From assembly GCF_025602895.1 (NCBI RefSeq), contig NW_026516203.1, forward strand, positions 434,001-498,000: a stretch of DNA of 64,000 nucleotides, given 5' to 3'. The stretch comes from Polychytrium aggregatum (lineage: Eukaryota > Chytridiomycota > Chytridiomycetes > Polychytriales). How positions within the stretch are numbered: position 1 is the first letter of the stretch; the number at the start of each line of letters is the position of its first letter. Shown piece after piece: positions 22,101 to 64,000 of the stretch. A program made the translations under genes and the position numbers. The notes beneath the pieces were generated by a model that did not search any database, had not been told where the DNA came from, and saw only the letters and a program-made list of their open reading frames with translations.

Positions 22101-25100
22101 CGAGTACCGCCGCCAAGCCGTCCACCTCCTCACTTGGTCCCAAGACCCTCTCATGTTCCACTTCGAGAGTGGACTCAAGCCCTCGGTTCAAGACGAACTC
22201 TCCCGCCGCTCCTTCGACAACCTCGAAGATCTCATGCAAGCGGCGATCGCCATCGACAACCGCCAGGAGGACCAACGTTCCCGCCGTCCCAACCACCGCT
22301 CCGCTCCTGCTCCTGCTCCTGCTCGTCCGGCTCCTCTCCCTTTCCGTCCGGCTCCTCGCCCCTTCGCTCCTGCTCCTCCTCCTCGCCCCGCTCAAGCCTT
22401 CAACGTTCCGCAGCCCATGGACCTCAGCCAGGCCTCCGCTCGCAGGCTGACCGCCGAGGACAAGGCCGCCCTCCGTGCTGCCAACCGCTGCTTTTATTGC
22501 AAGCAGGAAGGGCACATTGCCCTTCGCTGCCCCAATAAGGCATCCTCCCGCTTGGCTGCCATCGATGCTTCTTTGGCTGTCGTTGATGTGAATAAACTTG
22601 ACGACCAGGAAAACTTCTCTGCCTAGAAAAGGTCGGAGGAGCTTTCCTAGGCGTCAATCATGTCATAAATCTTCCTCCTGTAAATGTCTCCACGGTAAAT
22701 CACTCTTCTGCCTTTTGCCATCTTGCCCCCGTCACCATTGCCACCGTTTCCACTGCTCTTGCTTCTTCGTCTTCGCCTCCCGAGCCTGACATCCAACGTC
22801 AGCCCTCCCTCGCTGTGACTCTGCTGTGCGGTCCAGAGTCCATACGGGCAACCGCCATGATCGATACCGGCGCGGTTACTTCGTTTATGGACACTGGATT
22901 CGCCGCAACCCACGCTCTCCCCACCTTTGCAACTTCTTTCGTCATCACTCTTGCCGATGGTTCTTCGATGGAGTCTAGTCTTGGAGTTTGTGTTTCTATG
23001 ATCACAGGCATCAGCCACTATGAACAAATCTCGTTCGCGCTGATTCCCTTGGCTTCATACCCGATCATCTTGGGTATGGATTGGATCAAGAAACACAAGC
23101 CCTACTTTGACTGGCACCATGACTCTATTTTCTTGCCTTGCACCTTCTATCCACAGTTTGGCCTCCCCGTTCTCTCCCGAGCCACAGTCCTCTAGGTCCA
23201 GCCCTGCCGAGCCGCCTGCCGAGTCCCCTGCTGAGGTCCCCGCCGAGCCTGCCGTGTCCCTGCCCGAGTCCAAGATCGTTCCTGCCAAGTCCCCAGCCGA
23301 GTCCCCAGCCGAGCCCGAGATCCTCCCTGCCTTGCCTCCTGCCGTGCCCAAGCCCAGTCCTGCCTTGCCTCCTGCCGTGCCCAAGCCCAGTCCTGCCTTG
23401 CCTCCTGCCGTCCCAAAGACCAAGACCAAGACCCAGTCCCTGCCCAGCGTCAGCCTGATCGGCAGCATCCCCTTCCAGCACGCCGTCCAGAAGGAAGGCC
23501 TGGAAGTGTTCCTCTTGGATGCTGCCCGAGTCCTGTCCCTCTGCTCCGTCGACGCTGGAGCCAAGCCCAAGGCCGAGCCCTCTGTCCCCTCCAAGTACTC
23601 GTCCTTTGCCAAGGTGTTTTCCAAGTCCGAGGCCGACAAGCTCCCCCAGCACCGCCCTTACGACCACACGATCCCGTTGGTCGAAGGTGCGTCCCCGTCG
23701 TTTGGGCCCGTCTACAACCTCTCCAAGCCGGAGATGGACGCCCTCCACACCTACATCCAAGAGAACTTGTCCAAGGGTTTCATCCGCCGTTCCGAGTCCC
23801 CTGCCGGTGCCCCAGTCCTGTTCGTCAAGAAGAAGGATGGCTCCCTCCGTCTCTGCGTCGACTACCGGGCCCTGAACAAGATCACCGTGCCGAACCGTTG
23901 TCCCTTGCCCCTGATTGCCGAGACGTTCGACAACCTCGGCAAGGCCAAGATCTTCACCAAGCTCGACATGCGAGGCGCATACAACCTCTTGCGCATCGCT
24001 GAAGGTGAAGAGTGGAAGACGGCCTTCCGCTGTCGCTACGGCCACTTCGAGTACAACGTCATGCCGTTCGGCTTGACCAACGCTCCTGCCTCGTTCCAAG
24101 CCTTCGTCAACGATGTCCTCCGAGAATACCTTGACCAGTTCGTGGTCGTCTACCTGGACGACATCCTCATCTACTCCTCCGATCCTGCCGAGCACGAGGC
24201 TCATGTCAAGAAAGTCCTGACCAAGCTCCAAGACGCCGGACTCTCACTCAAGCTTGAAAAGTGTGAGTTCGACCAGTCCTCCGTCGCCTTCCTCGGGTTC
24301 ATCATCTCGCCCGATGGAATCTCCATGGATCCCGACAAGGTCAAGGCCATCCAGGAGTGGGAGATCCCCCGATCTGCCCACGACATCCAAGTCTTCCTCG
24401 GCCTGGCGAACTTCTACCGTCGGTTCGTCAAGGACTACTCCAAGATCGCCACCCCGCTGACGGACCTCCTGAAGAAGGACATCAAGTTCTCCTGGTCTCC
24501 CTCGGCTCAAACGTCATTCCTGAAGCTTAAGGAATGCCTGAGCACCGGTCCTGTCCTCCGCCACTTCGACCCCGAGCGTCAGTGCGTCATCGAAGCCGAC
24601 GCATCTGACTATGCTCTTGGCGCTGTTCTCAGTCAGCGCGACGACGAAGGCCTCCTCCACCCCGTGGCCTTCTACTCCCGGAAGCTGCTCGATGCAGAAA
24701 TGAATTATCAAATCTATGATAAGGAACTTCTCGCCATCGTCGCAGCCTTCAAGCAATGGAGACACTACCTCGAGTTCTCCTCCCAAGCCACCGAGGTCGT
24801 CACCGACCACAAGAACCTCGAATACTTCCAGACCTCCCGCAACCTCAGCCGTCGCCAAGTCCGTTGGTCCGAGATCCTTGGCGATTACAACTTCGTCATC
24901 AGGTATCGACCCGGAACCCTCAACAATGCCGCCGACGCCCTCTCCCGCAAGGACAAGTTCCCTAAGGAGGGGGGTGACTCCCGTAGCTCCCCGAACACCC
25001 AGACCCTGCTGCCACCAAAACTCTTCGTTTCCGCCCTCCGAGCTGTTCCCGTTGCCCCCGAGTCCGAGGATATCGCCGTCCCTCATCAAGTCAAGCCTCA

Positions 25101-28100
25101 AGAAGGACTCTACCTTTGGTCCGATCCTGTCCCAAGTCCTCAAGAACCCTGCCTCCTGTCCCGGCTACTCCGTCGACAACGACCTTCTGCTCTTTGAAGG
25201 TCTCGTCTGCGTCCCCGATGTCCCGAGCTCAAGCGCAAGATCCTCGTCGAGTGCCACGACTCGCCGACCGCCGGCCACTTCGGCGTCGCCAAGACCTTCG
25301 AGCTCGTCTCCCGGACCTTCCACTGGCCGACCATGCGTCGTTACATCAAGGAGTATGTCTCCGGATGCGACACCTGCCAGCGGAACAAGCACTCCCGTCA
25401 CAAGCCCTACGGACTCCTTGCCTCGCTCCCTGTTCCCGATCGCCCTTGGTCTTCTGTCTCGGTCGACTTCATCACCCAGCTTCCCGAGTCCTCTGGACAC
25501 ACAGCCATCTGTGTGTTTGTCGACCGCTTCACCAAGATGGCCCACTTCGTCCCGTCAAGCAACGAGGCCAACGCCGAGGACACTGCTCGGATGTTTGTCG
25601 AGCACGTCTTCACCAAGCACGGTCTTCCAGACGATATCGTCTCAGACCGAGGATCTACCTTTGCCTCCAAGTTCTTCCAAGCCGTCCTGACCCGCCTCAA
25701 GATCAAGCACAAGATGTCGACTGCCTTCCATCCGCAGACCGACGGCCAGACCGAGCGGGTCAACGCCATCCTCGAGCAGTACCTCCGCTGCTTCATCAAC
25801 TTCCAGCAAGACGACTGGGCCCAGCTCCTCCCTCACGCCGAGTTCACCTACAACAACACCTCTCAAGCAACCCTCGGCTGCTCCCCCTTCTTTGCCTACA
25901 CCGGCTACCACCCTCGTTTTTCCGTCGCCCTTCCCCGCACCACCAAGAATGCCTCCGTCGCCGACGATCAAGCCCGAGCCATTCACTCCCTCCACGATGA
26001 ACTCAAGTTCAACATCGCCCTCGCCCAGGACTCCCAAGCCAAGTTCTACGACCCCGGCCACTCCCCTTCCCCTCCGTTCAAGGTTGGAGACCGAGTCTGG
26101 CTCTCCGCCAAGAACATCAAGACCCAGCGACCCACGGCCAAGCTCGACCACACCAAGCTTGGGCCGTTCAAGATCGTCGCTCAAGTCGGTTCCCGCGCTT
26201 TCAAGTTGGACTTGTCCTCGTCCATGCGCATTCATCCTGTCTTCCACGTCTCCCTGCTCGAGCCTGCCGCCGACGACAAGATCCCAGGTCGAACGATCCC
26301 GCCCCCTCCACCCATCCAAGTCGACGGCCACGACGAATGGGAAGTCGAACAGATCCTGGACTCCAGGCTGTTCCGAGGTAAGCTCCAGTATCTTGTGCAC
26401 TGGCGTGGCTACACGGTGATGGATTGCACCTGGGAGCCCGCCAGCAATCTTGCACATTGTCCGGAGCCTGTCGCTGCCTACCACTCCTCTCATCCCTCGA
26501 AGCCTGGCCCTCTCGGAGCTCGGGCCTTGTAAGGAGTGAACAAGCGCAAGGACGAAGACCAAGTGCTTGGTATGAGCTTTATTAGCTTTTAGCCCCGAAC
26601 ACCAAAGAACAAGTTTTGTTCGAACTGGTGTTCAACATAGGCTCAGACATGCAGGGCTATTTATAGACCGGGAGAAGGTCGAGGGGCAAAAGTGGGCGAG
26701 AAGGGTGGAGCATCACAGAGAAGCGAGAAGGGGGTGCGAGAGTGGCTGGTGTGCAAGCGAGAGAGGCTTGGCACAGCCCGGGGACATGTGCCGAGCGGTG
26801 GGGGAGGCAGGAAACCAGTAGACGCGGGTGGCAACGGCGCGTGCTCATGCATGGGGGCAAACAAACACGTGGGGACTCATGATTGGTGCGGAGGGCGAGA
26901 GCATGCGGGACAATCTCATTGGTCCGTTGTGATGCTGGTCATCACACTATCTCCTCCTTAAACTACGGCGTGTTCCATCTTGAGTTCTCCTGGGGCCAGG
27001 CTTGTCTGGGTAGCGTCGGTGGTACTCCGCGGCCACCGTTGGGGCAAAGACAATGTCGGCGGGCTCCCAACTTCGATCGGTGACCGGGTAGCCTTTCCAA
27101 TCGATGAGATAGTGCAGCTTTCCGCGCACGAACTTGGAGTCTAAGATCTCTTCGACCTCCCACTCCAAGTTCCCATCGATGACCACCGCAGGGGGCGGCG
27201 CTTGCACCCGACCCGGAAGCGAGTTCTTCTTGTAGGGCTCAAGAAGAGACACATGGAACACCGGGTGCACCTTTATGTCCTTTGGCAAGTCCAGGCGGAA
27301 AGCCAATGTCCCGACGGCCTCGAGGATGGTGAATGGTCCAATCCTCTGGTAATCCAGCTTCTTGCTTGGGCGAGTGGTGCTGATGTTACGAGTCAGCACC
27401 CAGACTTGATCGCCCGGACGCAAGTCGGGAGCCTGGGACCTCCGGAGATCTGAGAAGTGCTTGTAGTCAGACTTTGCCTTCTCAAGATTCTCCTTCAACA
27501 GTGCCAGGTTCCGCTGGAGATGTTCAACCCTCTCCGTGGCAGAGGGAACATCAGGGCCGCCAGCGACAACGGGGACTTCGAACCTTGGGTGGAACCCATA
27601 GGTTGCCAAGAATGGCGAGGCATGTGTTGACGAGTTCTCGAGGTTATTGTAAGAGAACTCGGCCAACGGCAGCAGCTCGGCCCAGTCATCTTGCTGATAC
27701 GACGTGTAACAGCGCAGGTATTGGTTGATGACCTGGTTGACCCTCTCAGTCTGTCCATCGGTCTGGGGATGGAAGGCCGTGGACAGACTGGTTTGGATCC
27801 CGAGCTGCGTGCAGAGTGCCTTCCAGAACCGAGAGGTGAACTGACTTCCTCGGTCTGAAACCACTGTGTCGGGGAGGCCATGGAGACGAAAGACATTGTC
27901 GAGGAACAGTGACGCAGTCTCCTCCGCCGACGGCAGTGAACGCCAGGACATAAAGTGTGCCATCTTTGTGAGGCTGCATACCACCACAAAGATGCAGGTG
28001 TGACCCTTGGACTTTGGCAGATCAGTGATAAAGTCCATGGTCAGTGTCCCCCAGGGTCGATCGGCTGTCTGGAGTGGCAACAGGAACCCAAACGGCTTGT

Positions 28101-31100
28101 GTCGCGGAGCTTTCGAGCGTGCACAGGTGTCGCACGTCGAGACGTACTCTTTGACATCTTTCCGATAGGTTTGCCACCAAAACTGTCGCGATACCAGAGC
28201 CAGAGTCCGTCGGATGCCTGGATGACCCACAGCGACTGGGTCATGGCACGACTTGAGCGCCGGAACTCGGCACGACTCTGGGACCACAATCCTGTTCTGG
28301 AAGGTGAGGTACTGGCCATTCCAGACGAACTTCGGGTCACGACGGTATTTGTCTAGACCGGGATCCCGAGCCTGCTCTTCGGCTATGAGCTGCAGCAAAT
28401 CCACAGGGTCACTGCGACTTGCAACCGAAGAGCGGGCGTCTCTGCTTCGGAGCACGCGTATCACCGCGGCAGGATCGAGAAGCAGAGGCGGATCCCTCGA
28501 CACGGAGGCCGACGAAGGGATGTAGTCCGAGCGACGAGACAGGGCATCGGCCTTGCCGTTCCTCGCACCAGGACGGTACTGGATGCGGATGTCGAACCGA
28601 GACAAGAACTGGGACCACCGTGCATGACGCTGGTTTAGGATGCGAGCCGTTGCCAGGTACTCCAAGTTCTTGTGATCGGTCAGAACGGCAACGGGATGCT
28701 GGGCGCCTTCGAGGTAGTGTCGCCACGCCTCGAAAGCCTCCTTGATCGCCAACAGCTCTTTCTCGTATATGCTGTAGTTACGTTCAGCATTCGAGAGTGT
28801 CCGCGAATGGAACGAGCAAGGATGAAGGCGATCATCAGCACCCCGCTGGGAGAGCACGCATCCAAGCGCAAAGTCCGACGCATCTGACTCTACGACGAAC
28901 GGCTTGGATGGGTCCGGATGCACCAGAACGGGCTCCGAAACGAAGGCATCCTTCAAGGATCTGAATGCTTTATCGGCTTCGCGGGACCACTGGAAGCCAT
29001 GCGTCTTCCGGAAGAGCCGAGTCATGGGCCCCGCGATCTTTGCGTATCCATCGATGAAGCGTCGATAGAAGTTCGCAAACCCGACAAAGGATCGAAGATC
29101 CGAGATGTTGCGCGGTATGGGCCAATCCAAGATCGCAGAGAGCTTGGATCGCTCCATACCGATGCCCTCGGGCGAGACCATGAAACCAAGGAACGAGACC
29201 GAGGTTTTGGAGAACTCGCACTTCTCCAGCTTGCAATACAGCTTTGCAGCTCGGAGCTTCGAGAGGACCTGCTTGACGTGCTCTACATGCTGCGACGGAT
29301 CAGCACTGTAGATCAAGATATCGTCAAGATACGCAATTGCGAACTGGTCCAACTCGGTGCGCAGGACGTCGTTGATGAAGTGCTGGAACGTCGCTGGCGC
29401 GTTGGTGAGCCCAAAGGGCATCACCAAGTACTCGAAGTGCCCATATCGAGTACGGAAAGCTGTCTTCCACTCGTCCCCGGAGCGGATGCGCAGCAGATTG
29501 TAGGCTCCACGAAGGTCCAGCTTAGTGAACACCTTCGCGCCTCGAAGTCGGTCCAGCAGCTCGCCGATCAGCGGTAAAGGGTAACGGTTCTTTACCGTGA
29601 TACCGTTCAGTGCGCGGTAGTCAACGCAAAGACGAAGTGAGCCGTCCTTCTTCTTGACGAAGAGGATTGGTGAGCCTGCTGGGGACGACGAAGGACGAAC
29701 GAATCCCTTGGCAAGATTCTCGTCGAGATAGTCACGCAGAGCGTGAAGTTCGGGCTCGGACAGTGAGTACAGAGGCCCGAACTTTGGCGACTTGCCCGGC
29801 TCCAAGTCAATGGGGCAGTCATAAGGGCGATGCGGAGGCAAGGAGTCAGCTTCCTGTTTAGAGAAAACAGACAGGAAGTCCTTGTACTCCGCAGGCACTT
29901 CGACAGTCGCAGTGCTCGGCTCGTCAGTGGGCAGGACATGGACCTGAAAGATGGTCAGGGGTTGCGTTCCATGCCTGCATGCATCCAAAGACTCGCGCAT
30001 CGAGCGGTAATCAATGCTGCAGACGCGGAGAGGAGCGTCCGAGCTGAGAGGAGGGGCGTGGACAAGGTCAGAATAATGTTCGACGGTTACTTTATTCTGA
30101 ACAATGTCCGAAGAACAAACAACAGGAGGAGGTACATCAAGGAGGGAAAGAGAACTGACAACAGAAGAAGGGGTTTGGGAAGAGCGAAGGGGTTCGGGAG
30201 GAACAAGACAAGAAGGGGAAGACGAAGGTGGGAGCGTAGGAGAGGAGCTTAGATCAATCAAAGGAGTGGAATCATCAAGAAGGGGAGTGACATTGGAGGA
30301 AGTGGAGCAAGACGAAAGAGAAGTAGTGCATGGAGAGGGGTCGGAATCAACAGAAGGAGGGAGACAAAGAAGACCGCGAGACCAGACAATCTTGGGCTCG
30401 GCGGTGCGCAACCAAGGAAAGCCAAGGATAAGTGGTTGATGTGGAGACCTGATCACATCGAACCGAAGGCGTTGCGAGACGTCCCCGAGAATCACCTCGA
30501 GTGGAGCAGTCTCGCGGAGGATGGGGCCAGACGACAGCGGCTTACCATCCACGCCTTCCACTGCCAAGGGCGAAGCCTTGGAGCAGGTGGGGACAGAGTG
30601 TCGAGCAACAAAGTCCTCGTCGATAAAGTTGCCAGAGGCACCAGAATCGACAAGTCCTTCGCACGACAGAGAATCACCAGAAGGAAGACGAACAGCGACG
30701 GGAACAACCAACGAGCAACGACGAACAGACGAAACACAAGACTTTGGTTCGGTACCAGCTTCGGCACCAGGGTTGCGGCTAGCACAGACAGTTAACTTTG
30801 CCGAGGGTTGGCAGGACAGCTCAGGTATTTGCACCTGTGGATGAGGTGCAGTTCCCAGTGACACCAGAGGTGCCACGGGTACTATGCCAGAGCTGAGAGT
30901 GTCCGCCGGTCCAGAGGCAAGGCGAAGCTGTCCGCACATCACTGCTTCCCCAGTACTTACCAAAGGCACCTTACCAATGTCTTCACTTTCGGAAGGCGGT
31001 GGGCACGGCTCCGGTTCAAGGCCTTCACTTAGAACCGGGCCTGGTCGTTTCCCGAACTGAAGTCTTGCACTTCTCCATCTTCGTAAACGATGGTGCGGAT

Positions 31101-34100
31101 GATCCTCGGGCCGGGAGGTCCAGGGGGCGGTCCGGTAGCTCTGGTAGATCCAAACTTGACGGGGCAGTTTCGTACCAAGTGGCCCTTCTTGCCACAGTAC
31201 AGGCAGAGTCCAAAGCGGCGGCGGCGTTGTTTCTCCTCGGCGGTCAGGGGTCCAGAGACGGCAGAGTCCACTTGCATGGGCTCGGAAACAATGTAGGAGG
31301 GGTGCGGCGGAGCGAGGACGGGCGCGGGAGCGATGGCGGGAACGGCAGCGGAGGCGGAACCAAAGGCGAACTGGGAAGACCGGTAGCGGGCAGGCGTGCT
31401 TCGGCGCTCTTGACGGCGCTCGCGGATTCGTGCATCGAGCTCGTTACAAAGCTCGATGTACTCCTCCAGATCTCGTGGCAGAGGGCGAACTCGCGAAAGT
31501 TCGTCTCTGACATCATCCGACAAGCCAAGTCGGAAGAACGAGATCTTTGCACCGTCGTTCCAAGTCGTATCGGCGGCAATACGAAGGAACTCGGATGCAT
31601 AGACTGCGCACGGGCGGTTGCCCTGAGACAGTGTGGTGATCACTGACTCGGCAGTCCTGGCCCGATCAGGGTCGTCAAACACTTTGGAAAAGCGTTCTAG
31701 GAAATCGCCAAAAGAGTTGAGTCGGGGATCACCCATCTCAAGCATCGGAGTCGCCCACTGGAGAGCCGGTCCAGTGAGCAGACTAATGACGAATCCGACC
31801 TTAATCGGGTCAGCAGGGAACCGGTGGGGCTGCATTCGTATATACAGTTTGCACTGATTTACGAATGCCCGGAACCCTTGCCGGTTACCGTCGTAACGGT
31901 CCGGCATCTGCACGCTGTACCCAGCGGCAGGAGCATCGCGAGCTGTCCGGAGCTCGGCGAGCTCGGCCTCCAAGGCACGGAGGCGGTCCACGAGGGCAGG
32001 ATCCATGGCGGGACTGGGACTGGGACTGGGAAAAAAAAAAAAAGCGAGGAGGTTCAAGAACAGGAGAGCGAAGAGGGCTCAGACACAAGTGTGCTTGAGG
32101 TTCGGACAGGACTAGGAAAGGGGCGGGGCTAGGAGCGGAAGATACCAAGCAGGTGGTATCAGTAGAAGAGAGTTCGAACAAAGTGTAAGGAGTGAACAAG
32201 CGCAAGGACGAAGACCAAGTGCTTGGTATGAGCTTTATTAGCTTTTAGCCCCGAACACCAAAGAACAAGTTTTGTTCGAACTGGTGTTCAACATAGGCTC
32301 AGACATGCAGGGCTATTTATAGACCGGGAGAAGGTCGAGGGGCAAAAGTGGGCGAGAAGGGTGGAGCATCACAGAGAAGCGAGAAGGGGGTGCGAGAGTG
32401 GCTGGTGTGCAAGCGAGAGAGGCTTGGCACAGCCCGGGGACATGTGCCGAGCGGTGGGGGAGGCAGGAAACCAGTAGACGCGGGTGGCAACGGCGCGTGC
32501 TCATGCATGGGGGCAAACAAACACGTGGGGACTCATGATTGGTGCGGAGGGCGAGAGCATGCGGGACAATCTCATTGGTCCGTTGTGATGCTGGTCATCA
32601 CAGGCCTTGAGAGGGGGGTAGTGTCATGAACACCCTCTGCCTTTGCCCACTCCCTTCCTTTACCCTTGCCCTTTCCTTTCTGTTTGCCTGTCTTAGTGCT
32701 TTCCCTTCCTTCTGTTTGTTTGTTTCCCGCGCTGTGCTGCCTTGTTGTCTTACCGCAAGCACGCGCGCTGCCTGTGTTCCGTTCCCGCTCCCTTGCTGTT
32801 GGTCATGGGTTACGCCCACGACGCCGCCTCGACGCCGCCTGACGCCTTGGCGCCGCCAAGCCGCCGCCACTGACGCCCGCTGACTCACGGATCCCGAGTC
32901 ACGGCCTGTAAGGAGTGAACAAGCGCAAGGACGAAGACCAAGTGCTTGGTATGAGCTTTATTAGCTTTTAGCCCCGAACACCAAAGAACAAGTTTTGTTC
33001 GAACTGGTGTTCAACATAGGCTCAGACATGCAGGGCTATTTATAGACCGGGAGAAGGTCGAGGGGCAAAAGTGGGCGAGAAGGGTGGAGCATCACAGAGA
33101 AGCGAGAAGGGGGTGCGAGAGTGGCTGGTGTGCAAGCGAGAGAGGCTTGGCACAGCCCGGGGACATGTGCCGAGCGGTGGGGGAGGCAGGAAACCAGTAG
33201 ACGCGGGTGGCAACGGCGCGTGCTCATGCATGGGGGCAAACAAACACGTGGGGACTCATGATTGGTGCGGAGGGCGAGAGCATGCGGGACAATCTCATTG
33301 GTCCGTTGTGATGCTGGTCATCACACGGCCGCCACCTGCTTCGCTCGCTGCTTCGCCCTCCCCGCCGCTGCTTCGCTCCTGCCCCCTCGCTCTGCAGCGT
33401 CGATCCTTGGCGCTCGCATAAATAGCCCTCCGACCAGCCTCTGTCTTTTGCCTTCGTCTTGCCACTTTGTATTTTTAGTATCCTAAGCCTTGGATCTAGA
33501 ATAAAACTTTGGCTTCACACTTGACACTCTGTGTCCCAGTCCAGTTCCCGCTCCTCTCCCTACGTTCGAGTCTTGCATTAGGACTCTTGCGCACTTCCCT
33601 GCTTGCCCCGTTGTCCAGTCTTGACACATAGGTTGTCTCGGTCACTCGAGGTCAAGGCTGCTCATAGCAGCGGGAGAATAGACACACGAGCGCGGCATGA
33701 ATGTCCGGCAGCTTGGGTTGACGTCGGTTCTGCTGAAGCCGCTCTGAGCCCTCGCAAACCCTCGCGAGGACAGGGCTGCAGGCAAGTCAAGAGCGTGCAG
33801 ATATACCCTTGGGCAGTCCACAGAATTGATGCACCTATGCCAACGAGGACCGCAGCAGGGATCAAAAGCTTGTACTGCAGGCTGAGTTGGTCGGGGCTAT
33901 CAATGGCGATGACATAGGCGACATCCATCAAGATATACGGGAGCGCCCCGAGAACCAGAGCATATCTGGCGGGGTTGTCATCCGAGAAACAAGCGGTCGG
34001 TGAGTCTGCTTTCGGGGGGAGGCGCTGGCCAAGAGCAGATGGACTTGGCTGTCCCGGTTGCCGCAATTAAGACAAACGAGGGAAGGAATGACCAGCCGCT

Positions 34101-38975: not shown

Positions 38976-39176
38976 TCCGAACGATCTGGACAGGCGCTCG
39001 ATGCAGCTGGGGAGTTGTTCGTCTCGGCTCGTCGTTGACAGCAGAGGGAAGATCGTTGGCGACGGTGGTTCGCAAAAGGCAAAAAGCGTGCGATGGCCAG
39101 GGCGCGGCCAGCCACGGCGGGAGTGGGGCGGGATATTAAAATTTAATTACGTACCAGATGCAGGGTAAAACACAAG

Positions 39177-39258
39177 CGACAACTGCAGGGTTCGAACCTG
39201 CGCGGGCGAAGCCCATTGGATTTCAAGTCCAACGCCGTAACCACTTGGCTAAGCTGTC
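39177..39258 (-). tRNA. tRNA-Ser (anticodon TGA)
   Basis: On the minus strand the acceptor arms GACAGCT and AGTTGTC pair (one G-T wobble), with discriminator G as usual for tRNA-Ser. The anticodon loop is CTTGAAA with anticodon TGA, reading UCA. The T arm has GGTTCGAAC and the extra arm (TGGGCTTCGCCCG) is long, as in class II tRNAs. No intron is present and CCA is not encoded. Confidence 0.96.
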
Positions 39259-51684: not shown

Positions 51685-54600
51685 ATGGACGATGACTTCA
51701 GCTTCTTAGAGCACTCTGGCACCCAGCAGTACCACGACGACGATCTCGTCAACTTTGCCTCCATCACCAACGACGCCGAGCCCGACTTTCTCACTAACGA
51801 CACCGATCTCGGCTTCGAGTCGCTGTCGCTTTCCTCTGCCAGTGCCTCGGCCCGTGTCGGCCAATCGAAAAAGCGCTCCTCCAAAAAGCCGGCTGCCAAT
51901 CCTGCCTCCCTTGACGATGTCGATTACGTCTCCTTCGAGGAAGACCGCGGCGGTGATGACTCATTGTTGAACTTTGAGGAGCCCGACCTAGATCTCAACG
52001 ACGACGGCCCCCTGGGCTTCTCCAACTCGGAAATCTCGACCGAGCTGCCTGCGCACTCGTGCAAGTACGTGATGCCCGATACCGCCCTCGCTTCTGGTAG
52101 TCGCTGTGTCGAGTGGTGGGCTCATGCCGTTGGGGCCGTTTGGGCCGTTGGGGCCACTGAGGCCGTGATGCGCCGGCAACCACCCAGCGTAATTCTTTCC
52201 CTGCACCTTCGGCTCACGGATACTATGATGCCATGAATTCAGGTACTGCGGCATCCATAATCCCGCCTCGGTCGTCAAGTGCACCTCCTGCAGCAAATGG
52301 TTCTGCAATTCTCGGGTCGGCAACACCTCGGGTTCGCACATCATCCATCACCTCGTCAAGTCCAAGCATAAGGAGGTGTGCCTGCACCCGGACTCACCCC
52401 TCGGCGAGACGGTGCTTGAATGCTATCAGTGCGGCTGCCGCAACGTGTTTGTGCTGGGCTTCATTCCCGCAAAGTCCGATACCGTCGTCGTTTTGCTTTG
52501 CCGGTAGGTGCTCAAGCAGACAGAGCACGATGTGGCTGTCGCCGTCCCTGTCGTGCCCTCTGTACTGGTTCCTCTGTCTCACCTTTCCCTCTCGATCTAT
52601 TTCAGTCAACCCTGTGCAAGTGGTGCGAGCAGCAAGGATATGAACTGGGACCTGTCGCAGTGGCTTCCGTTGATCGAGGATCGCTCCTTTCTCTCGTGGC
52701 TTGTCAAGGTGCCTTCGGAGCAAGAGCAGCTCCGTGCCCGCCACATCACCACGAACATCGCCAATCGTCTTGAAGAGATGTGGAAAGAGAATCCGACTGC
52801 CACCTTGGAGGATCTCGACAAACCTGGTGCTGACGACGAACCCCATCCCGTCCTACTGAGGTGCGTGCAACAGGCTTTCCCGATGGATGGCGCTCTTCCA
52901 CCAGCTGCAAAGCGCCTGGCATATTCTTTGCCCCTTCTCGACGACAACAGCATCTGCTCCCGTTGTCTCTGCGCTTCAAGCCAGATCAACTCCAACGATA
53001 GCGATCCGCATGGGTGCTCCCCAGACATGCTTCACAGACGTGGCTTCCTAAATCAGGGTTCCTCCCACGAACCAATGTAGATACGAAGACGCCTATCAGT
53101 ACCAGAACATCTTTGCTCCGCTCGTCAAGCTCGAGGCTGAGTACGACAAGAAGCTCAAGGAGTCTCAGACGCAGGAGGATGTCGTCGTCCGCTGGGATGT
53201 TGGTCTGAACCAAAAGCGAGTGGCGTACTTCCTTCTGCCCAAACTCGAGCAGGGCGACATCCGTCTCGCTCCCGGTGACGAGCTCTTGCTCAAGTACAAG
53301 GGCGAGCTGCACGCACCATGGGAAGGTCGCGGCCACGTTATCAAGGTTCCCAACAGTAAGTGTCGTGACTAGAAAACCAAGGTGCTCGCTGCGCTAATTG
53401 GTTTGGCGGCTCGCGAGGCCCAGGGGCACAACAGACTCGCTAGTCATCCTGGTATCGATGCCCCCTGTCGTTGTACGGGTTTGCGCGATACTATAATGCC
53501 GACTGCCAAGCACATTGACTGAGTCCGCTGTTTTGTTTGTGGGTCGTCTATCTGAAGATGTCTCCGAAGAAGTTGCCCTTGAACTTCGCCACCCCGATGC
53601 TCCTGTCGACTGCACCCACAACTTCTCTGTCGACTTTGTGTGGAAGTCGACTTCGTTCGACAGGTACTGCAGAGCGGTGTAGATGACAGATTCTAGACAA
53701 TGGCGCCCAAGCTCCTCATTCGGCTGTGCTGGGGTTGTCTGCAACTCGACTGGATGCGCCCTGTCCGCCCCTTAACAGCCGGCCTTTAACTTGCCTCTCT
53801 TTCCCATCTCGAACACAGAATGCAGACTGCGCTGAAGACCTTTGCTGTCGACGAGAACTCTGTCAGCGGCTATATCTACCATCGCCTGCTGGGCCACGAA
53901 GTCGAACCCCAAGTTCTGCGCGTGACTCTCCCGAAGCGCTTTTCGGCGCCCAACCTCCCCGAATTGAACCACTCGCAGGTCTTTGCGGTCAAGAGTGTTC
54001 TGCAGCGACCCATCAGCCTGATCCAAGGTTTGTTTGCGGTGGAGCATTGTCCCTTCGTGATGGAGCACCATTCGTAAGAGGCAGCCCCCTCCCTCTTCTT
54101 GCAGATCTCGTCTGATACCGTTGTGTTGCTACCTTGCCCTATACGTAGGTCCGCCCGGAACTGGAAAGACAGTCACTTCGGCGTCGATCGTTTACCACCT
54201 CTCCCAGATCAGCCAGGGCCAGGTTCTTGTGTGTGCCCCTAGTAACGTTGCCGTTGATCAGCTGACGGAGAAGATCCACCAGACGGGTCTCAAGGTTGTC
54301 CGTGTCGCCGCAAAGAGCCGCGAGACCCTCGAGTCACCCATCTCGTTCCTGACCCTCCACGAACAAGTCAAGAACAACGACACCAATCCCGAACTGCAAA
54401 AGCTCATTCGACTCAAGGGCGAGCTTGGTGAACTCAGCTCGGCTGACGAGCGCAAGTACAAAACACTCTATCGACAGGCCGAGCGCGAGATTCTCCAGCA
54501 CGCAGATGTCGTTTGCTGCACCTGTGTTGGTGCTGGCGATCCACGCTTGACCCGCTTGACCTTCCGCACTGTCCTCATCGACGAAGCCACGCAGGCGTGC

Positions 54601-56363
54601 GAGCCCGAGGGAATCATTCCGTTGATCCTGGGATGCAAGCAGGTCGTCTTTGTTGGCGACCACCAGCAGCTCGGCCCGGTCATCATGAACAAGAAGGCAG
54701 CGCGCGCTGGCCTGTCTCAGTCCCTGTTCGAGCGACTGATCATCCTCGGCATCCGCCCGATTCGACTCCAGGTCCAGTATCGCATGCATCCGTGTCTCTC
54801 CGAGTTCCCCTCCAACATGTTCTACGAAGGCAGTCTGCAAAACGGCGTGACGATGCAGGAGCGCCTCCGCAAGAACGTCGACTTTCCTTGGCCTGTTCCC
54901 GAGACCCCGATGTTTGTTTGGGGCTCGTTTGGCCAGGAAGAGATTTCGTCCTCGGGCACATCATATCTCAACCGCACCGAGGCCGCCAACTGCGAAAAGG
55001 TTGTTACCCGCTTCCTGAAGGCGGGAGTGCCGCCTTCGCAGATCGGCATCATCACTCCATACGAAGGCCAGCGCGCGTTCATTGTCCAGTACATGCAGTT
55101 CAATGGCGCTCTCAAGAAAGAGTTGTATAAGGAAATCGAAGTGGCCTCGGTCGACGCCTTCCAGGGTCGCGAGAAAGACTATATTGTGCTTTGCTGCGTC
55201 CGCTCGAACGAGCACCAAGGCATCGGTTTTCTCAGCGACCCCCGTCGTCTCAATGTGGCGCTGACCCGCGCAAAGTACGGCATCGTCTTGCTCTGCAATC
55301 CCAAGGTCTTGGCCAAGCATCCGCTGTGGTATGAGCTCTTGATGACCTACAAGGCACGAAACTGCCTAGTCGAGGGTCCGCTGAACAATCTCAAGGTGTC
55401 TGCAATCCAGTTCACGAAGCCGCGCAAAAAGGACGGCGACGTCGCTAACATGGCCAGAGGCAAGCGCTTTGGTATCGATGCTGCTCAGCACTACGCCAAG
55501 GCTCCGAGTGCGAACGACTGTGAGTACTCGCTCTACTTTCTCCCTGGGCGGGTGCAATCTTGGGCCTCCATTGCGATGGAGGGTCTGTCCGCGATTGGTC
55601 TCGTACGAGTGTGATTCAGCTAGAGCGGATGCCCCGCACATGTGGTGCTGAGTCGTTGGTATGCTGGACTTTGTCAGAGTGCTGCAGGCTATTGTAATGT
55701 CCTTGGTTTCATTCGATCTATTCTGCTAACTAAGATGCCTTCCTCCCCCCCTCTGTGTCATCGCTGGGATCGACTTTCGACACCACCTTGCATTGTCATT
55801 GCCCGATCGTCAATGTTTGGTTGCTGTGTTGACAAGCAGTCCCTCGTGGCACCGGCAGCGGTGCACTTGCTGGCTTCCAGGATCCGCTGCTTGATCCCTC
55901 TCGACTCTATTCTCAGTCGCAGTACTCGATCCCATCAGCCTCGCCCATGACGCCATTCACGCAAGACATGCCCATCCCTGCCGCTGCGTCGCAGCCTGGA
56001 TTTTTCCCCGCTTCTGCGACGAGCTATCCCTCCCAGGATAATGGCCTGCAGCGCTTTCCTGCCTTTCGCCGAGGCAAGCTCCGCGGGCCCCTTCCGTCTC
56101 AGTCCCAAACTCAGACCCAAAGCCAGAGACAGCGCACACAGCAGAGCATGTTCACTCAGCCCGACGTTCATACTCAGTCTACCTTCCTGTCGGCCACTCA
56201 GACGACCCTCAGCCAAAGCGATCGACTGGGTCTCGGAAGCTCGATGCTGAGCCAGGACTTTATGGACGACTATGCCTACAAGAGCCAGGCCGATGTCTGG
56301 TTGAGCCAAGGTCCTCGCAGCCAACTCGATGGCATGAGCCAAGGTGGATTCACTCAGTTCTAG
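51685..56363 (+). CDS. UPF1: UPF1/RENT1 RNA helicase (nonsense-mediated decay)
   Basis: UPF1 is the ATP-dependent SF1 RNA helicase at the core of nonsense-mediated mRNA decay. The N-terminus is acidic and disordered ([16 protein letters not shown]). The Cys/His zinc domain that binds UPF2 follows ([46 protein letters not shown]). The 1B/stalk region has [20 protein letters not shown] and [16 protein letters not shown]. The helicase core lies mostly in one long exon (from about 54150): GPPGTGKT (motif I), [13 protein letters not shown] (Ia), [10 protein letters not shown] (II), [10 protein letters not shown] (III), [13 protein letters not shown] (IV), [11 protein letters not shown] (V) and [11 protein letters not shown] (VI). 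The last exon is SQ/TQ-rich ([26 protein letters not shown]), like the animal UPF1 tail phosphorylated by SMG1. The stop is at 56361-56363. Confidence 0.96.
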
Positions 56364-57479
56364 CTGCCTGGACCCAAGCCTGCCTCCCTGGCCGCAACAC
56401 AGTACAGCGCGACCTGCTGCTGGCTCCTCCCGTCCACGGACATTGTCTCCCCAAAGCCTGGACGATCACTCCACAGCTCTGTGGATTTACCTGCGGACAG
56501 CTGCCTTTGCACGCTCTCATGCTCTTAGATCAAGAGGGCTATCCGGGTGCCATCTCTCGGCGCTCGCCGGCAAAGTAGTGCCTGGCCGAATGGAGCCAAC
56601 AGATGGGTTCTCGTCGGTGCAGACGTTGCCGAGAGCGTTCGCATGAGCGATTCGGTTAGTCCGAGGCTCTGAGCCTGGCCGATATTGGCATGAGTCTGGA
56701 CTGCGACCTTCGAGCCCCCAATAAATCCGAATACCGCTGCAATCAGTCGCGATTTGCGCCGGAGAACACACTGCACACACAGTGACCCCCCTCCTAAAGA
56801 GGGCCGAGAGCAGCCTCGTTGGCTACGGTGCGGAGGATCAGACCTGCTTGTCGGAAACCAGCCCGATTCACATTCGTATCCGCCCCAAGTGTACCTGATA
56901 CCCGCAGGTACTTGCGCCGTTGCATCCTCCCGCGTGCTGACAAGGACCCGGATTTTCAAGTGGCCTGGTGTTTCTGATGCTCTGGCTGCCAGTCGACACC
57001 ATGCAGTCTGCCCACAGAGCAAGCGATCACCCATGCAAGTATGCTGCTGTGGGATGGGATGGGATCGCATTGGTCGACAGCAACCTGGCGGTCGGTTGCA
57101 AATCCAAGGCACTTGGCTGCCAGATCCCTCTGCTTTCGCAAGCATTCCGCATCGTGGCCACTTGAGCCATCGCAGCCCCCGCTCGATGCAGCGCCGCCCC
57201 ATGCCCGCCTCTATCCGCACTGCCTTGGCCGGCTCCTTTCCGTCGCCCAGACACTTTGCCACCATCGGGGAGGTGTGTTGTGGTGCTGCTTCGGGACTGC
57301 CTCGCCAACAGGACGCCGAGGTGCTAAGCCACACGCCTGGAGGAGACGGCCACCAACCAACCACCGACGGGCTCTGTGGTTCCCGCTTGGCCTCTCGCCC
57401 CCGTGTCCTTTTTCTCACTTGCCTCTGGCCCAGACGCTTTTTCCCATCCCTCCGGGCGAACACCCAAGTACCTTGCGCA
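56364..57479. other. Intergenic: UPF1 3' region and promoter of the HDAC-CSL gene
   Basis: About 1.1 kb. Long open frames cross it on both strands (a 494-codon one on the minus strand), but they have no recognisable protein content and continue antisense into the HDAC exon, so I treat them as GC-rich chance frames. Promoter of the downstream gene expected here. Confidence 0.45.
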
Positions 57480-60400
57480 ATGACTGCCGTCGAGCCTGCC
57501 CAGGGCACCCATTCCGTCAACGGGTCTCTTCCGGAAGGAGATGTCTTGATGGCCGAGGCCTCGCTTGCCATCGACGACTTTCTTCGGCTACCGGAGGAAC
57601 CCAGTGCCGCTGCAGAGCCGCCGCTCGCCAAGATCGAGTCGCCCCGGGAGCAGCCCATCCAGGATATTATTATGGACGAGCAGCAGCCAGCCGCCGAGGA
57701 CGCAAAGGGCACTGCCCTGGCAAAGCGAGTCGGATACATACTCTCGAGCGACATCCTGCGTGCCTCCGACTCGCTGCCGTCCAACGAAAACAGAGTAGAT
57801 ATCCCAATGCCCCGCCTCCCTCCCCCCTTGGCTCGGCTCCGGGACTGAATGCCGGCTGCCTCGTACTGATCCAATGTGCCTGTTTTGTGCACCACATGCA
57901 GTCCTCGATGCTCCACTCCCTCATTATTGCGTACAAGCTCCATGAGCACATGAGGTATGGTCTCGGCTGGCGGCAAGAGACGCAGGCCGGCCCGTGCAAA
58001 GCCTCGCACCTGTTCCCACGAGCTTTGGTCGTCTCATCCTCTGCACGTTACTTGCTGCCTGCAAAGCATTATACCGCCGGAAATAGCATCGATAGAGGAT
58101 CTGAAGGAGTTTCACTCCTCGGATTACGTTGGTAAGAGACCCGCAGCACTGCTGATCGACCCGCGAATCTGCTGGTGGGGAGACAGGATCTTCGGGTCTG
58201 CATGCGATCAGTCTGGTCTCTGACAAACATCTGTCCCCCCCCCATTGATGCCCTCTCCCCAATCTTGGCGGGACCCATCCAGACTATCTTATGGAGGTCG
58301 AGAAGCTGGAGGACCGCAATCCGGACGACCTGGACCGCTACGGCCTCGTCAAGTACGGCCCTGCTGCGTGCTGCCCTGTCCTCGCTGGCCGTGCCCGCTG
58401 TGCCATAAATAACCTGTGTTTATTGCTCCCGAGTACCTGCATCTGTGTGCGTCCGCTGCCCTGTCTGATCGAGTGCTTCTCACCCATGTCTTGCCGATCG
58501 CCAGTGACTGCCCCATCTTTCCTAATCTTGCCAACTACGTGAGACTCGTGGCTGGCGGCACCATATCCGCTGCCAAGCTGCTCACCGAGGGCGGATACGA
58601 CGTCGCCATCCACTGGGACGGCGGTCGCCACCATGGCAAAAGGTAAGCAGGGGGTCTGATCCCTGCCTCTTGTGCACTCTATCTCGGATCCCGCTGCTGG
58701 GTGTCCCACACTCGGTTCTCGGGATGGCTCGGGCTTGATCGGCGTTTGCCCTGGCCACGGCACTGACTCTGGTCGTCTGTTCCTGGCTCGCCCCTGCCGC
58801 CGTCTGATACAGAGACTCGGCCTGCGGATTCTGCTATATCAACGACATTGTCCTGGGCATCCTCGAGCTCCACAAGAAGTACGAGCGCATCCTGTACCTC
58901 GACCTGGACATCCACCACGGCGACGGTAAGCCTCCAGCGTTTCTCACACCGCTGGCGACGACGCTCTCGCGGCCATCCTGCTCCCGAACAAGCTGCGTGG
59001 GAGGGCCCGCTGACTAAGCACCACGCGGTTCCCTGTTTTGGCCGACAGGCGTCGAGCAGGCTTTCCAGACAACGTCCAAGGTCCTCACGGTTTCGTTCCA
59101 TAAATACGAGCCCGGCTTTTTCCCTGGTAGGCAGGCCGGATGATGGAGATGGTGGGCGTCGATGCAGGGTCGCAGGGTTGCAGGGAGCGGTGCGTGGGTG
59201 ACGGCTGATCGTGCCTGTCGTCAAGCATATCGTCCCGCACCACAGCGGGCTCGGGCTTTGTTGTAACTCGTGGAATGCTCTCTCGTTCGTGCGCTCCCAG
59301 GAACGGGCTCGATTGACGACGTTGGTTACGGCAAGGGCCTCAACCACTCGCTGAACATCCCGCTCCGTCCGGGCTTCAGCGGCGTTGGTCTCCGCTACCT
59401 GTTCAGCAGGGTCATCGATAGTGCCATGGAGAACTACAATCCCGACGCCATCGTCATCCAGTGTGGTGCCGACGGCCTCGCCAACGACCCGCTTGTTGGC
59501 CGCGGAGGCTGGAACCTGGACGAGCGAAGTATCGGCGAGTGTGTTGCCAAGACCCTGTCCTTCAACAAGCCCACGCTGGTCCTTGGTGGCGGGGGCTATG
59601 GCAATCCGAATGCAGCTCGGTGCTGGGCCTGGTGCACAGCCGTGATTGTCCAGCAGGAGGAGCTCATCAGCGAGGACATCCCGGATCACCCTTTCCTCAA
59701 CAAGTACGGCCCAGATTTCCGGCTGCCGGTTGATCTTACCTTTTACAAGGATCGCAACGACACTCGCTACGTCGACGACGTCATCAAGAAGGTCACGGGT
59801 ATCCTCAAAAAGACCCGTCCAGGTACCTTCAACCATGTCGAAGACCTCGAGGAGTCCATACTCAACCTTGAAACGCCTGAGCCGGTGGAGCTCGAGCCCA
59901 CCAGCCTCAACCTTTTCCCGGCACAGAGGCAGGTCCAGAAACGGAAGCCTCGGGGGCCTCCCACCGAGCTTGAGCCACACGAAAAGCGCCGCAGTTCGCG
60001 CATGCGCACTTCCTCGCTGTCAACGACACCCGTGCCGTCGGTAAACGACGACCAGCCCCGCCGCAGCCGGCGCTCTGTGCCGTCTATTCCCTCCCCGACA
60101 AGCCCAATCGCCCTGGACAGTCCCCGCCGATCGAGATCACCGAGTCCATATGTCCGCCGAATCATCGACTCGTCAACCACCCATGCCTTGCTCAGCCAGC
60201 CTGGAATGTTCCACACGCCGCAGCGGGAGGGGCGTTCCCGATCCCGCGAGGACCGTGAGAAGTCCCAGGATCGAAACAGCCAAGCGCGCCGGTCTCAGAA
60301 CAGTAGTGCCCATCCTCGCACCTCCTCTGGATTCAGCTCTCTTGATGGATCGATTGACCAGAGCGGCCATTCGCTTGCGCTTTCGCATAACGGGCATCTG

Positions 60401-63334
60401 GATGTCTCGTCTCTCCCGCCCACCCCTGACGACCGCCCGGACCACATGCTGCCTCCGCTCGATCCCATGAGCTTCATCCGCTACGAGGACAGTTCGGCGC
60501 CTGCGATTCCGTCATACTACCCAATGCTTGCTCATCACGGAGCACACGCAAGCTATCCCGCGACAGCGTACACCGGGCTCCCAAGCACTGCACTCGCTGA
60601 TCCAGGACTCCTTCAGCAGCTCAAGTGCGTACCTTGGCCTGACAGCTTGGTCGCATCCGCGTACTCGCTCGCTTCTTCTCATGTGCCGTGCATCTAACTC
60701 TGCGTCTGGACTTGAATAGGCATCACGTGTCATCGTATCTTGCAGGAGATTCTGGAAACACCTACTCCCTCATCATCATGAATCCCAAGGTCGCTCAAAA
60801 GTCATACGGCACTGAGAAACGGTATGGCAGTTGTGGGTCCTTGCACGTGCGCGAAGGCTGTCGGTGCTCCTTTCGTCGCTGGACTATGGACTGTGCTGGT
60901 ACGGCTTGCAGCGTTGCTCCTTTCTCGGATCGGCCGAGTCAGTCGAACTTACTGCTTTGCCCAAAACGTGCATGCCATCCTTCAGCTTCTTTTGCCCTCC
61001 TCCGCTCTGTGTCATGAGTGGCGGCGGGTGGTCCACCGCACACACTGCTGTCAACGATAGCCTGGCGACAGACTTGAAGATGTATGTTTCTCTATCCGAG
61101 CCTATCGATGAGGATGCCGAGTCCGCCACGGGCCTAGGCGTTAGAAATCGCAACAAATCCCGGGTCCGTTATGCGTCCCCGCCTTTGCAAGCACCTGGCT
61201 GCGGCGATATGGAGGCTTCAGAGATCGATATCCTTCGGACGCCCGAGTCGGCGGTGGGCATCCAACCCAACTCGGATCTCCATCGACTGGCCGTGTTCCG
61301 CAACCTCTTTGTCAACGACGCCGAGAAGCGCAAGGACTTTGAGCTCTTTATTCGGGTAAGTTCGGCCCAAGACTCCAAATCCTCGCGGTGACTGTCCTAC
61401 AGCGCCGCTCTGAGTGGACACGCACCGCCATCGCTGTATGTCAACACACGGCACTAACGCCACCAACCTCAGATTCAAGGTGCGGCGTACTGTGCTCCAT
61501 TTGGGAGTTTCAAGTCCAAGCCCATCAAGGTCATTTCGAAGCCATCCAAGAAGCGGCTGCCTGTCTCGAAAAACGGATCGTGTAGGTGTTACTGCTCACC
61601 GTGTCCGCTTGGCTACCTTTCCGGACTGTATCTGGAGCTCCGTGAGCTCTGGGTCAGTGTGATGCCATGGCGGTGACGATATCCCCTGACCTCCGCTCCT
61701 GCTTCTTCGTTTGTCCTTGACACCCCAACCCTCGGCCCGTTTGATCCCGGTTCAGTGTACATCCACTCGGGCACTTCCGTGGGCATGTTCAACCGCGTTC
61801 GTTCTCAGACCATCAGCACCCGGTTTATCTCTGTGAGTGCCGATGGTCAGTCGCTGCTCCCCAGCTATGGTACCTGGGACAGCTTCATCATCTGGTCCTT
61901 GGACGACCCTGCCTTTGACAAAACCGACCTGCTCAAGAACCACGAATATCTCCCCGACGACGAGATCATTTGTCATCGCCCTTCAACAAGCCGATTTGCT
62001 GGCCAGCTCAATGCCTACATGACTCCGCCTGTGTCCCCGCATCTTAAGCGCCGCACGCTCCCTGGAGCGACCGTCCTCGCAACTCCCCAGTCCGAGTCCG
62101 TCTCCGTGCCCCCCTCACCCGCGGTGGAGCACCGAGCCCTTGAGTTTGTCTCGGCTCTGGATGAAACAGGCTCAAACAGCGACGACGTTGAGAACGCTGA
62201 GGACGAAGGTCGCGTGCTTTTGTACGGCGAGCGCGTTGTCCTGCAGCACGTTGGGAGCGGGCTGCTGACGCGGCCGTTCATCATCTGCCACATCGATGGT
62301 CGCGGCCAAATCACAAGTGATTTTGGTGCCGGAGCCGGTATGTATTTCCTTATCGCCATCATGACAGGTAGTCAAATCGGAGCCGCATCCGACAACTCAC
62401 CGCTGCTCTTTGTTGTTGTTGCCCTACCAGGCCAAGGTCGGGGTATACCTGTCTGCCAGCTGCACAAGATCGCCTTCCAGCTCGCGGATAACCCCAATCG
62501 TTTCCTGTGCCTCACTGACGGGCGGCACCGCGATCGTCTGGCTATGAACCTTGTGAATGTCGGCGACAACACTGGGGCAAGCTCATCCAGGCAGTCGTCT
62601 CCCGCTCGCAAGAAGCCACGCCGCTCGCGGAGCATGGTTCGAGGACGAGAGGCCGAGGGCGATGATGAAGGCCTGGGCGACATGGACACATCCGTAGAAG
62701 TGTCTCCGGGCGACCTGCCTTCCGACGAAGCCTTTAGAGGCGCCGATATGAGCGAATATGGCGTTTGGAGCATCATTGGCATCAGTAAGTAGCATCTCCA
62801 ATCCCTCATCGTTGATGCGAGGCGCTTGACTGCACATAACGGTCTCCCACGATGGCTCGCCCTTGCTCACTACCCTTTCTCTGTCGCTCTCGGTGCCCTG
62901 CATCTGCCTTTGTAGACCATATGGAGTACTCGTTTTACATTCCACCCGGCAACCTCGCAAGCCATCCGGAGCAGCCCCCTCATTTGTTTGACTCCAATGC
63001 GTCCATAGCAGGATCCAGCGCCCATCCCATCCCGATTGTCCACTCGACTCAGGTCTCGACCGAGAATCCGTCTCGGCTCACGCTCTTTGGTGAGAACTTC
63101 ATCCCAGACCTGGTGGTGCACTTTGGCGCCACCCCCGTTCTCTCGGCTGTGATCAACAATCCCAGCACAATCACCATCGATGTCCCTCCTGAGTTCCTCC
63201 TCGGAGACGGCAGCGGATCGATGGGTGGTGCATTCAAGCCGCAGCCAAGCCCAGACCGCCTGCCGATCCTGCTCGCTCGCCTCGACGGCGTTGTGTACAA
63301 CACTGGCCATTTCTGGTCAATCAAGATCGACTGA
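57480..63334 (+). CDS. Class I histone deacetylase (HDAC8/Hos1-like) fused to a CSL (CBF1/RBP-J/Su(H)) transcription factor
   Basis: Start ATG 57480 ([15 protein letters not shown]). The HDAC domain (residues about 78-464) spans exons 1-8: [37 protein letters not shown] (catalytic His pair), [10 protein letters not shown] (zinc Asp/His), [11 protein letters not shown] (zinc Asp), [15 protein letters not shown] (catalytic Tyr). Exon 8 (59301-60624) runs on without a stop through a Ser/Arg/Pro-rich linker of about 250 residues to [10 protein letters not shown]. It then splices in phase (donor GTGCGT at 60625, acceptor GAATAG, exon 9 at 60720) into [95 protein letters not shown] and the TIG-type C-terminal domain ([17 protein letters not shown]) ending WSIKID (stop 63332-63334). 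Predicted protein about 1370 residues. A separate CSL promoter inside exon 8 cannot be excluded. Each domain is certain; the single transcript is inferred. Confidence 0.85.
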
Positions 63335-64000
63335 ACCTGGACAGCGACCTGCCACCACGCCGGCGACCGAGGCCCGACAGCCCCAGCAAAGGCGCTGGAG
63401 CACTCGTTTGTTGGGGAACAGTGATGGCGGCTCTCGATTCCGAAAATACAGATATTTCATTGCAACAGCGCCTTTCCCCCGTCCACATCGTTTCAATTGC
63501 GAGCCGGATCGCGATAAGAAAGGTATCGATCAAAGAGACACCCAAGTGAATCCGGATGGGTGACGGTCGGACAGCCAGATTCGTGATATTGCTACCGCTG
63601 CGTTCATCGCCAGGACCTCATCTTGCAAAAGTTGCCTGTGGCCGTGAGAGCCACCGAAACACAGACAGCGAAAACAACACCATCTCCGACACAGAGGGAC
63701 TTGTGTGCGCAATATCGAGCACGTTTGGGAGAAGTGGGATGTCTGACACCAAAAAAAAGGAGGGGGAGGGTGCATCGAAGAGGAAGAGAACGGAGCAAAG
63801 AGAGAGAAAGAGAGAGGGAGCTCGAAAGTGATGGCGAGAGAGTCATGTAAGAGAAAAGCTCAGACGGAGGAAGGAGGTACGTGTGGCGAGCGGGGCAGAT
63901 AGCCACGAGAGAATACAAATGTGGGGGTGGGGAAACTGCACCAGCAAGTTGTGTGCAAAGGATGGGAGACAGGCGCACATTCCCGGGTTCGGCATTCATC
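63335..64000. other. 3' region of the HDAC-CSL gene; GA-rich repeat
   Basis: No gene recognised. A purine-rich stretch dominated by GAGA/AGAGA units lies at about 63770-63835, and an A-run at about 63753-63760. The window ends here, so a gene starting beyond cannot be judged. Confidence 0.4.

Follow-up and report, generated by a model that had tools for sequence, protein, structure and literature searches.

The window analyzed here is a stretch of 64,000 nucleotides (nt) from the chytrid Polychytrium aggregatum (contig NW_026516203.1, positions 434,001 to 498,000 of the forward strand). Positions 57480 to 63334 of its forward strand hold a gene model of 14 exons in one open frame, which encodes 1363 residues followed by a stop codon; 13 of 13 introns have GT-AG ends. 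The predicted product joins a class I histone deacetylase (HDAC) of the HDAC8 subclass to a DNA-binding protein of the CSL family (RBP-J, Su(H), and LAG-1, and the fungal Cbf11/Cbf12 classes F1 and F2). The observation that the two are encoded end to end in one continuous predicted gene is confirmed: the claim of an uninterrupted HDAC-CSL frame, made in a preliminary description of this DNA, is borne out by the 1363-residue model and its Pfam domains, and the calculated mass of 149.2 kDa agrees with the size of about 150 kDa given there. From the DNA alone, this architecture looks genuine. The gene is laid out as follows.

57480-63334 (+): whole predicted coding region, 14 exons, 1363 amino acids (aa), 149.2 kDa
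57480-57794, 57902-57954, 58067-58131, 58283-58352, 58505-58642, 58813-58925, 59049-59126 (+): exons 1 to 7
59301-60624, 60720-60821, 60986-61355, 61473-61581, 61756-62337, 62431-62784, 62916-63334 (+): exons 8 to 14
57480-59126 (+): exons 1 to 7, N-terminal extension (approximately aa 1-81) and the first part of the HDAC domain
59301-60624 (+): exon 8, 1324 nt in one stop-free frame, with the second half of the HDAC, a linker that looks disordered, and, from the first CSL helix, L718 and two bases of K719
59825-60598 (+): linker, aa 453-710, of low hydrophobicity and rich in S, P, and R
60608-60741 (+): first conserved CSL helix, LLQQLK/HHVSSYL (aa 714-726), interrupted by intron 8 at the slash
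60625-60719 (+): intron 8, 95 nt, gtgcgt..tag, with CTAAC 23 nt upstream of the acceptor
60720-61581 (+): exons 9 to 11, RHR-N (LAG1-DNAbind, aa 737-906, 60772-61562)
61756-62784 (+): exons 12 and 13, beta-trefoil region with insertions (BTD match at aa 1052-1136, 62172-62519, under the cut-off)
62916-63334 (+): exon 14, RHR-C (TIG_SUH, aa 1263-1359, 63029-63319) and the stop codon

Along the product, the Pfam domains follow in the order Hist_deacetyl (PF00850; residues 100-392, E 2.4e-77), LAG1-DNAbind (PF09271; residues 737-906, E 8.9e-31, 108.1 bits against a cut-off of 25), BTD (PF09270; residues 1052-1136, 23.2 bits, below the 25-bit cut-off, with parts of the region alignable with LAG-1), and TIG_SUH (PF20144; residues 1263-1359, E 2.3e-13, 50.6 bits against a cut-off of 24). 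The linker contains, at aa 491, an 18-residue segment resembling a bipartite nuclear localization signal. Splice sites were set by hand and eye, guided by frame and homology. Because they were chosen to keep the frame, the openness of exons 1 to 7 is no independent evidence of continuity; that of exon 8, a single exon, is. The preliminary description had this exon, its donor, and the next acceptor exactly right: the exon runs for 1324 nt without a stop in the HDAC frame and carries the second HDAC half.

The join falls within the first conserved CSL helix. L718 and K719 occupy positions -7 and -6 of this helix, which ends in V-x-x-Y-L, and exon 9 completes it in phase. The previously proposed splice (donor AA/gtgcgt after 60624, joined to 60720) stands. 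Usable sequence was available for 197 of 211 CSL proteins, and 166 could be anchored on Y/F/H/W-L, a simple anchor with no full alignment; among these 166, 76% have a hydrophobic residue at position -7 (L in 88), and 136 have K, Q, or R at position -6. Upstream of the join, the stretch 59819-60622 (804 nt, 268 codons) is open in the HDAC frame, with 2 stops in frame +1 and 10 in frame +2; 2000 dinucleotide shuffles of it had a mean of 5.0 stops in the HDAC frame and none in 0.7% of cases. Its 3-base periodicity, 2.97, was matched by 1% of 2000 shuffles and exceeds that of one intergenic stretch (0.80), and its synonymous-codon preference is 0.3, versus -10.9 and -16.3 in the other forward frames. 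The fit of the helix residues at -7 and -6, a stretch open beyond what shuffles give, and an intron 8 with standard ends and a branch-like CTAAC argue that exon 8 does continue into CSL. The further claim that no stop, poly-A site, or obvious promoter separates the two parts holds for the stop. AATAAA, ATTAAA, and TATAA are likewise missing from 59819-60719, but this says little, since the first two are also missing after the stop codon (63335-64000) and TATAA is missing before the ATG at 57480. In BLAST comparisons, the linker showed no homology to HDAC tails or CSL N-termini at an E value of 1 or better among the 120 HDACs and 211 CSL proteins listed by the search described below, and no second allele on which conservation of the frame could be examined was found, as the 5855-base locus occurs once in its own genome.

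A database of 5.8 billion proteins was searched with three queries, for each of which about 8000 candidates sharing the most words were scored. These were the whole product (words from its first 500 residues; lengths of approximately 750-2385; best 120 of 187 matches listed), residues 640-1363 (the same lengths; best 120 of 195), and a 616-aa composite of the N-terminal HDAC piece and the CSL pieces (lengths of approximately 339-1078; best 120 of 224). None of the 331 distinct proteins listed contains both PF00850 and PF09271 (the Pfam list of one, P0114, is incomplete), in agreement with the earlier statement that no protein of this architecture was known. BLAST of each part of the fusion against the proteins of the other group returned noise (best E value, 0.068). 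Nor is any of the matches listed near-identical to the predicted product, so that its own genome is seemingly not annotated there as one protein. In the literature searched (bioRxiv and most subscription journals are outside its coverage), none of the titles and opening abstract lines listed describes an HDAC-CSL fusion. The nearest parallel among the matches listed is a set of three Mortierellaceae proteins (P0075, P0081, and P0082), in which precomputed Pfam data place C2H2 zinc fingers in the same chain as a class I HDAC; a simple C2H2 pattern matched one of the three. Their deacetylase is nearer to an HDAC1/2/3-like one encoded on P. aggregatum contig C364 (432-435 bits) than to human HDAC8 (299-301 bits), and they lack CSL. 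The combination of a DNA-binding domain with an HDAC may not be unique, while that of CSL with HDAC8 is so far single. Among the HDACs listed, that of Sorochytrium (P0109) has a long insertion within the deacetylase domain that looks intein-like by eye.

By tree and PDB score, the predicted deacetylase is a member of the HDAC8 subclass of class I. A tree of 27 rows comprised 23 of the 120 listed HDACs, human HDAC8, two other HDACs of the same genome, and the query. The query joined the six HDAC8-type rows with support of 100/100, apart from the 20 HDAC1/3-type rows, among which were the two other class I genes of this genome, on a long branch of its own; five of those six rows had been chosen by their score to human HDAC8, a near-copy (P0104) was left out, and none is fungal. 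Among PDB entries, human HDAC8 scored 356.8 bits, ahead of HDAC3 (309.7), HDAC2 (304.4), and HDAC1 (303.0), and 163 of 356 aligned residues are identical to human HDAC8. H142, H143, D178, H180, D267, and Y306 of the human enzyme, which we take to be the zinc ligands and the catalytic His and Tyr, are all conserved (aa 210, 211, 246, 248, 335, and 377), and D101 is also kept. Human HDAC8, 377 residues in full length, aligns up to residue 375 and stops approximately where the linker begins, whereas the fusion runs on for about 910 residues, including CSL. Unlike HDAC1/2/3, human HDAC8 needs no corepressor complex for its activity. Hos1 is the yeast counterpart of HDAC8. The subclass of the fusion was set from nonfungal HDAC8 rows. 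An HDAC1/3-type corepressor enzyme was rejected on the tree and the PDB scores.

A profile search of the genome found other PF00850 loci on contigs C364, C162, C12, C112, C221, and C235. Those on C364 and C12 are HDAC1/2/3-like by PDB score and separate from the fusion locus; C162 and C112 were assigned as their pairs, and C221/C235 are class II-like as judged by eye only. No second HDAC8-type gene was recognized among these loci. The six loci lie in contig pairs, one identical in sequence (L010/L011) and two not (L003/L004 and L005/L006), and the assembly may partly hold both haplotypes.

The best solved-structure match of the CSL part is Caenorhabditis elegans LAG-1 (138.9 bits), with which the DNA-contact blocks, including QLHK, align by eye in the printed alignment; the residues predicted to bind GTG(G/A)GAA are conserved. 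RHR-N, BTD (below the cut-off), and RHR-C follow in the order typical of the family. In a quick tree of 42 rows, the CSL part fell on one branch with 6 of the 8 chytrid CSL rows (98% in the Shimodaira-Hasegawa-like approximate likelihood ratio test, SH-aLRT), with Anaeromyces and Piromyces outside. The query sits on a long branch grouped with further long ones, so the placement is flagged as unsure and gives modest support to a chytrid origin. A passage in PMC1973085 (2007) states that there was no evidence of CSL in chytridiomycetes; the matches listed here include eight chytrid CSL entries from seven genera. Within the 64.7 Mb of the genome, PF09271 and the Blyttiomyces CSL protein matched the fusion locus only, in scans made exon by exon on the best candidates, from which a very diverged second CSL could escape. 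A CSL-type site, GTGAGAA, is located at 57412-57418, some 60 bases ahead of the predicted start codon. Such sites were rejected as evidence of self-regulation: GTGRGAA is not enriched, with 12 copies in the window where 18 would be expected. Of the 12, 6 lie between 57412 and 63096; 3 of these are intronic, 2 of which contain the branch-like CTCAC, and this overlap permits no conclusion on self-regulation.

We consider it probable, on the strength of these sequence features, that one gene yields one protein in which a flexible linker of some 260 residues connects an N-terminal zinc deacetylase of the HDAC8/Hos1 type to a C-terminal CSL transcription factor. Such a product would be a CSL-tethered deacetylase. 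The CSL part would bind GTG(G/A)GAA elements and carry with it a deacetylase in need of no corepressor complex, which would remove acetyl groups locally at CSL sites. SMC3 of cohesin, the known substrate of HDAC8 and Hos1, would be the likelier target; histones or other promoter proteins are the alternatives. Deacetylation of SMC3 by yeast Hos1 and mammalian HDAC8 is stated in a passage of PMC4769318. The fusion may have originated from two tandem genes that lost the HDAC stop codon and the sequence between them, with the ordinary disordered N-terminus of CSL becoming the linker.

The interpretation offered in the preliminary description fares less well and is only partly supported: its mechanism, a hard-wired version of the animal SMRT/NCoR-SIN3-HDAC repressor, is not supported. 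What the fusion shares with the animal CSL-SMRT/NCoR-SIN3-HDAC1/3 complexes is the presence of CSL and a deacetylase together at a DNA site. In animals, however, CSL is linked to HDAC1/2/3 through bridging corepressors, whereas here the link is covalent and the enzyme, by tree and PDB scores, falls outside the HDAC1/2/3 type; its subclass has SMC3 as its documented target, and HDAC1/2/3-type genes are found separately in the genome. The residues that bind SMRT/NCoR are also generally not conserved in fungal CSLs, with some kept in class F2, according to PMC1973085. A deacetylase tethered by CSL, with cohesin or histones at CSL sites as its substrate, is the better interpretation.

Several points weigh against a CSL-tethered deacetylase made as one protein. 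With respect to its occurrence, no relative with an HDAC-CSL fusion is among the matches listed. The eight chytrid CSL entries, listed without PF00850, provide none: six (P0242, P0260, P0263, P0264, P0310, and P0320) reach the first helix without an HDAC, and two (P0256 and P0261) begin inside RHR-N and are uninformative. HDACs next to foreign domains are frequent among the matches listed, and some of these may be annotation merges. A disordered N-terminal stretch is common to fungal CSLs and the fusion, but the former usually have long N-termini devoid of known domains (PMC3155561), whereas that of the fusion has a catalytic domain.

At helix position -4, the window has H, where 82% of the residues in CSL proteins are hydrophobic. 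The coding signal of the linker is weak. Its periodicity of 2.97 is just the median of 804-nt windows across the whole 64 kb and far under those of the HDAC core (9.7) and CSL exon 12 (7.2). Long open frames are frequent here: the GC-rich window holds 50 stop-free stretches of at least 220 codons in its six frames, some of them antisense to the fusion gene. The linker shows a nearly neutral codon preference, with little difference between the three frames in 240-nt windows from 59906 onward; a weak codon signal is common in disordered regions. The linker has five in-frame ATGs (60002, 60206, 60446, 60467, and 60524). As long disordered N-termini are normal in fungal CSLs, one of these may be the start of a separate CSL that includes the linker. 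As for function, human HDAC8 residues Y100 and K33 are replaced by N and S, the substrate is purely inferred, and the activation of lipid genes by fission yeast Cbf11 is no pointer to repression.

The last point bears on a closely related alternative, which overlaps the explanation preferred here and differs from it in substrate: a real fusion serving as a plain CSL-tethered repressor that acts on histones, as in the preliminary description, with HDAC8 in place of HDAC1/3. We see it as possible, if on the unlikely side. When fission yeast loses Cbf11, H3K9 becomes hyperacetylated at the promoters of stress genes, an effect that a section heading there presents as likely indirect (PMC9870116). 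PMC11658701 describes Cbf11 as an activator of lipid genes together with Mga2, probably as the DNA tether of Mga2, which speaks against a simple repressor, as does SMC3 being the documented HDAC8/Hos1 target (PMC4769318).

Unlikely, too, is that two overlapping genes share exon 8. In that case, the HDAC8 transcript would retain intron 8 or be cleaved in it, the CSL would have its own promoter inside exon 8, and the fused protein would be absent or a minor isoform. With intron 8 retained, the HDAC frame would indeed stop, at 60695-60697, giving an HDAC with a long tail, and the five linker ATGs would offer CSL starts. N-termini of the resulting length are normal (a median of 291 residues precedes Q(K/R)SYG in 207 CSL proteins), and pyrimidines make up 0.70 of the 60 nt that precede the ATG at 60467, versus 0.63 for that at 57480. 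However, the richest 30-nt pyrimidine tracts within 200 nt reach 0.70, 0.77, and 0.77 before 60002, 60446, and 60467, versus 0.87 before 57480, and intron 8 has the standard ends and branch-like CTAAC of a spliced intron. The lack of poly-A and TATA consensus sequences in 59819-60719 also counts against separate genes, weakly so, as the known ends of the gene are without them too. An unspliced CSL start in exon 9 was considered and rejected, as the exon 9 frame opens no earlier than 60643 and has its first Met just ahead of KVAQKSYG. Improbable, finally, is an assembly error in which a collapse or base error removed a stop codon or intergenic stretch between tandem genes: the contig pairs C12/C112, C221/C235, and C364/C162, one identical and two not, indicate that haplotypes or errors are present, but the 5855-base locus was found once, a single base error would not leave 268 open codons in intergenic DNA, and the last bases of exon 8 carry the HDAC frame on into the CSL helix.

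Outside the fusion, the upstream neighbor at 54061-56363 (+) is a helicase, presumably UPF1-like, with AAA_11/AAA_12 at 54061-55611; the frame 55833-56363, which has no Pfam match, was taken as its end, with the join made by eye. Some 1.1 kb separate its end from the ATG at 57480, and an AATAAA is found at 56720. Elsewhere in the window is a closely spaced, oppositely oriented pair of Ty3/gypsy-type retroelements, both with reverse transcriptase, RNase H, integrase, and a chromodomain at the C-terminus: one at 21190-26529 (+), spread over three frames, and the other at 26950-31443 (-), in a single open frame of 1498 codons. A tRNA-Ser (tga) gene is located at 39176-39258 (-).

CSL, which forms the DNA end of Notch signaling in animals, is also present in Notch-less fungi, and its ancestral role is unsettled. 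The P. aggregatum fusion represents both the sole CSL gene and the sole HDAC8-type gene recognized by the genome scans, so that both jobs may depend on one molecule. A more far-reaching version, which we regard as doubtful and offer as speculation from sequence, is that of a natural sequence-guided cohesin deacetylase, in which CSL would bring the SMC3 deacetylase to target promoters and thereby couple gene control to the cohesin acetylation cycle. If true, the fusion would act as a "Rosetta stone": in other fungi, where CSL and HDAC8/Hos1 are separate proteins, the two would be expected to cooperate, in line with the cohesin defects reported in fission yeast without Cbf11 (altered cohesin dynamics in cbf11-delta cells, mentioned in PMC11658701, citing Vishwanatha 2023). 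Should RNA confirm the gene model, two normally separate chromosome regulators would be linked, and a class I deacetylase would be shown to be aimed at genes without a corepressor bridge. The covalent link to HDAC8 provides a testable lead that fungal CSL may act by local deacetylation, possibly of cohesin.

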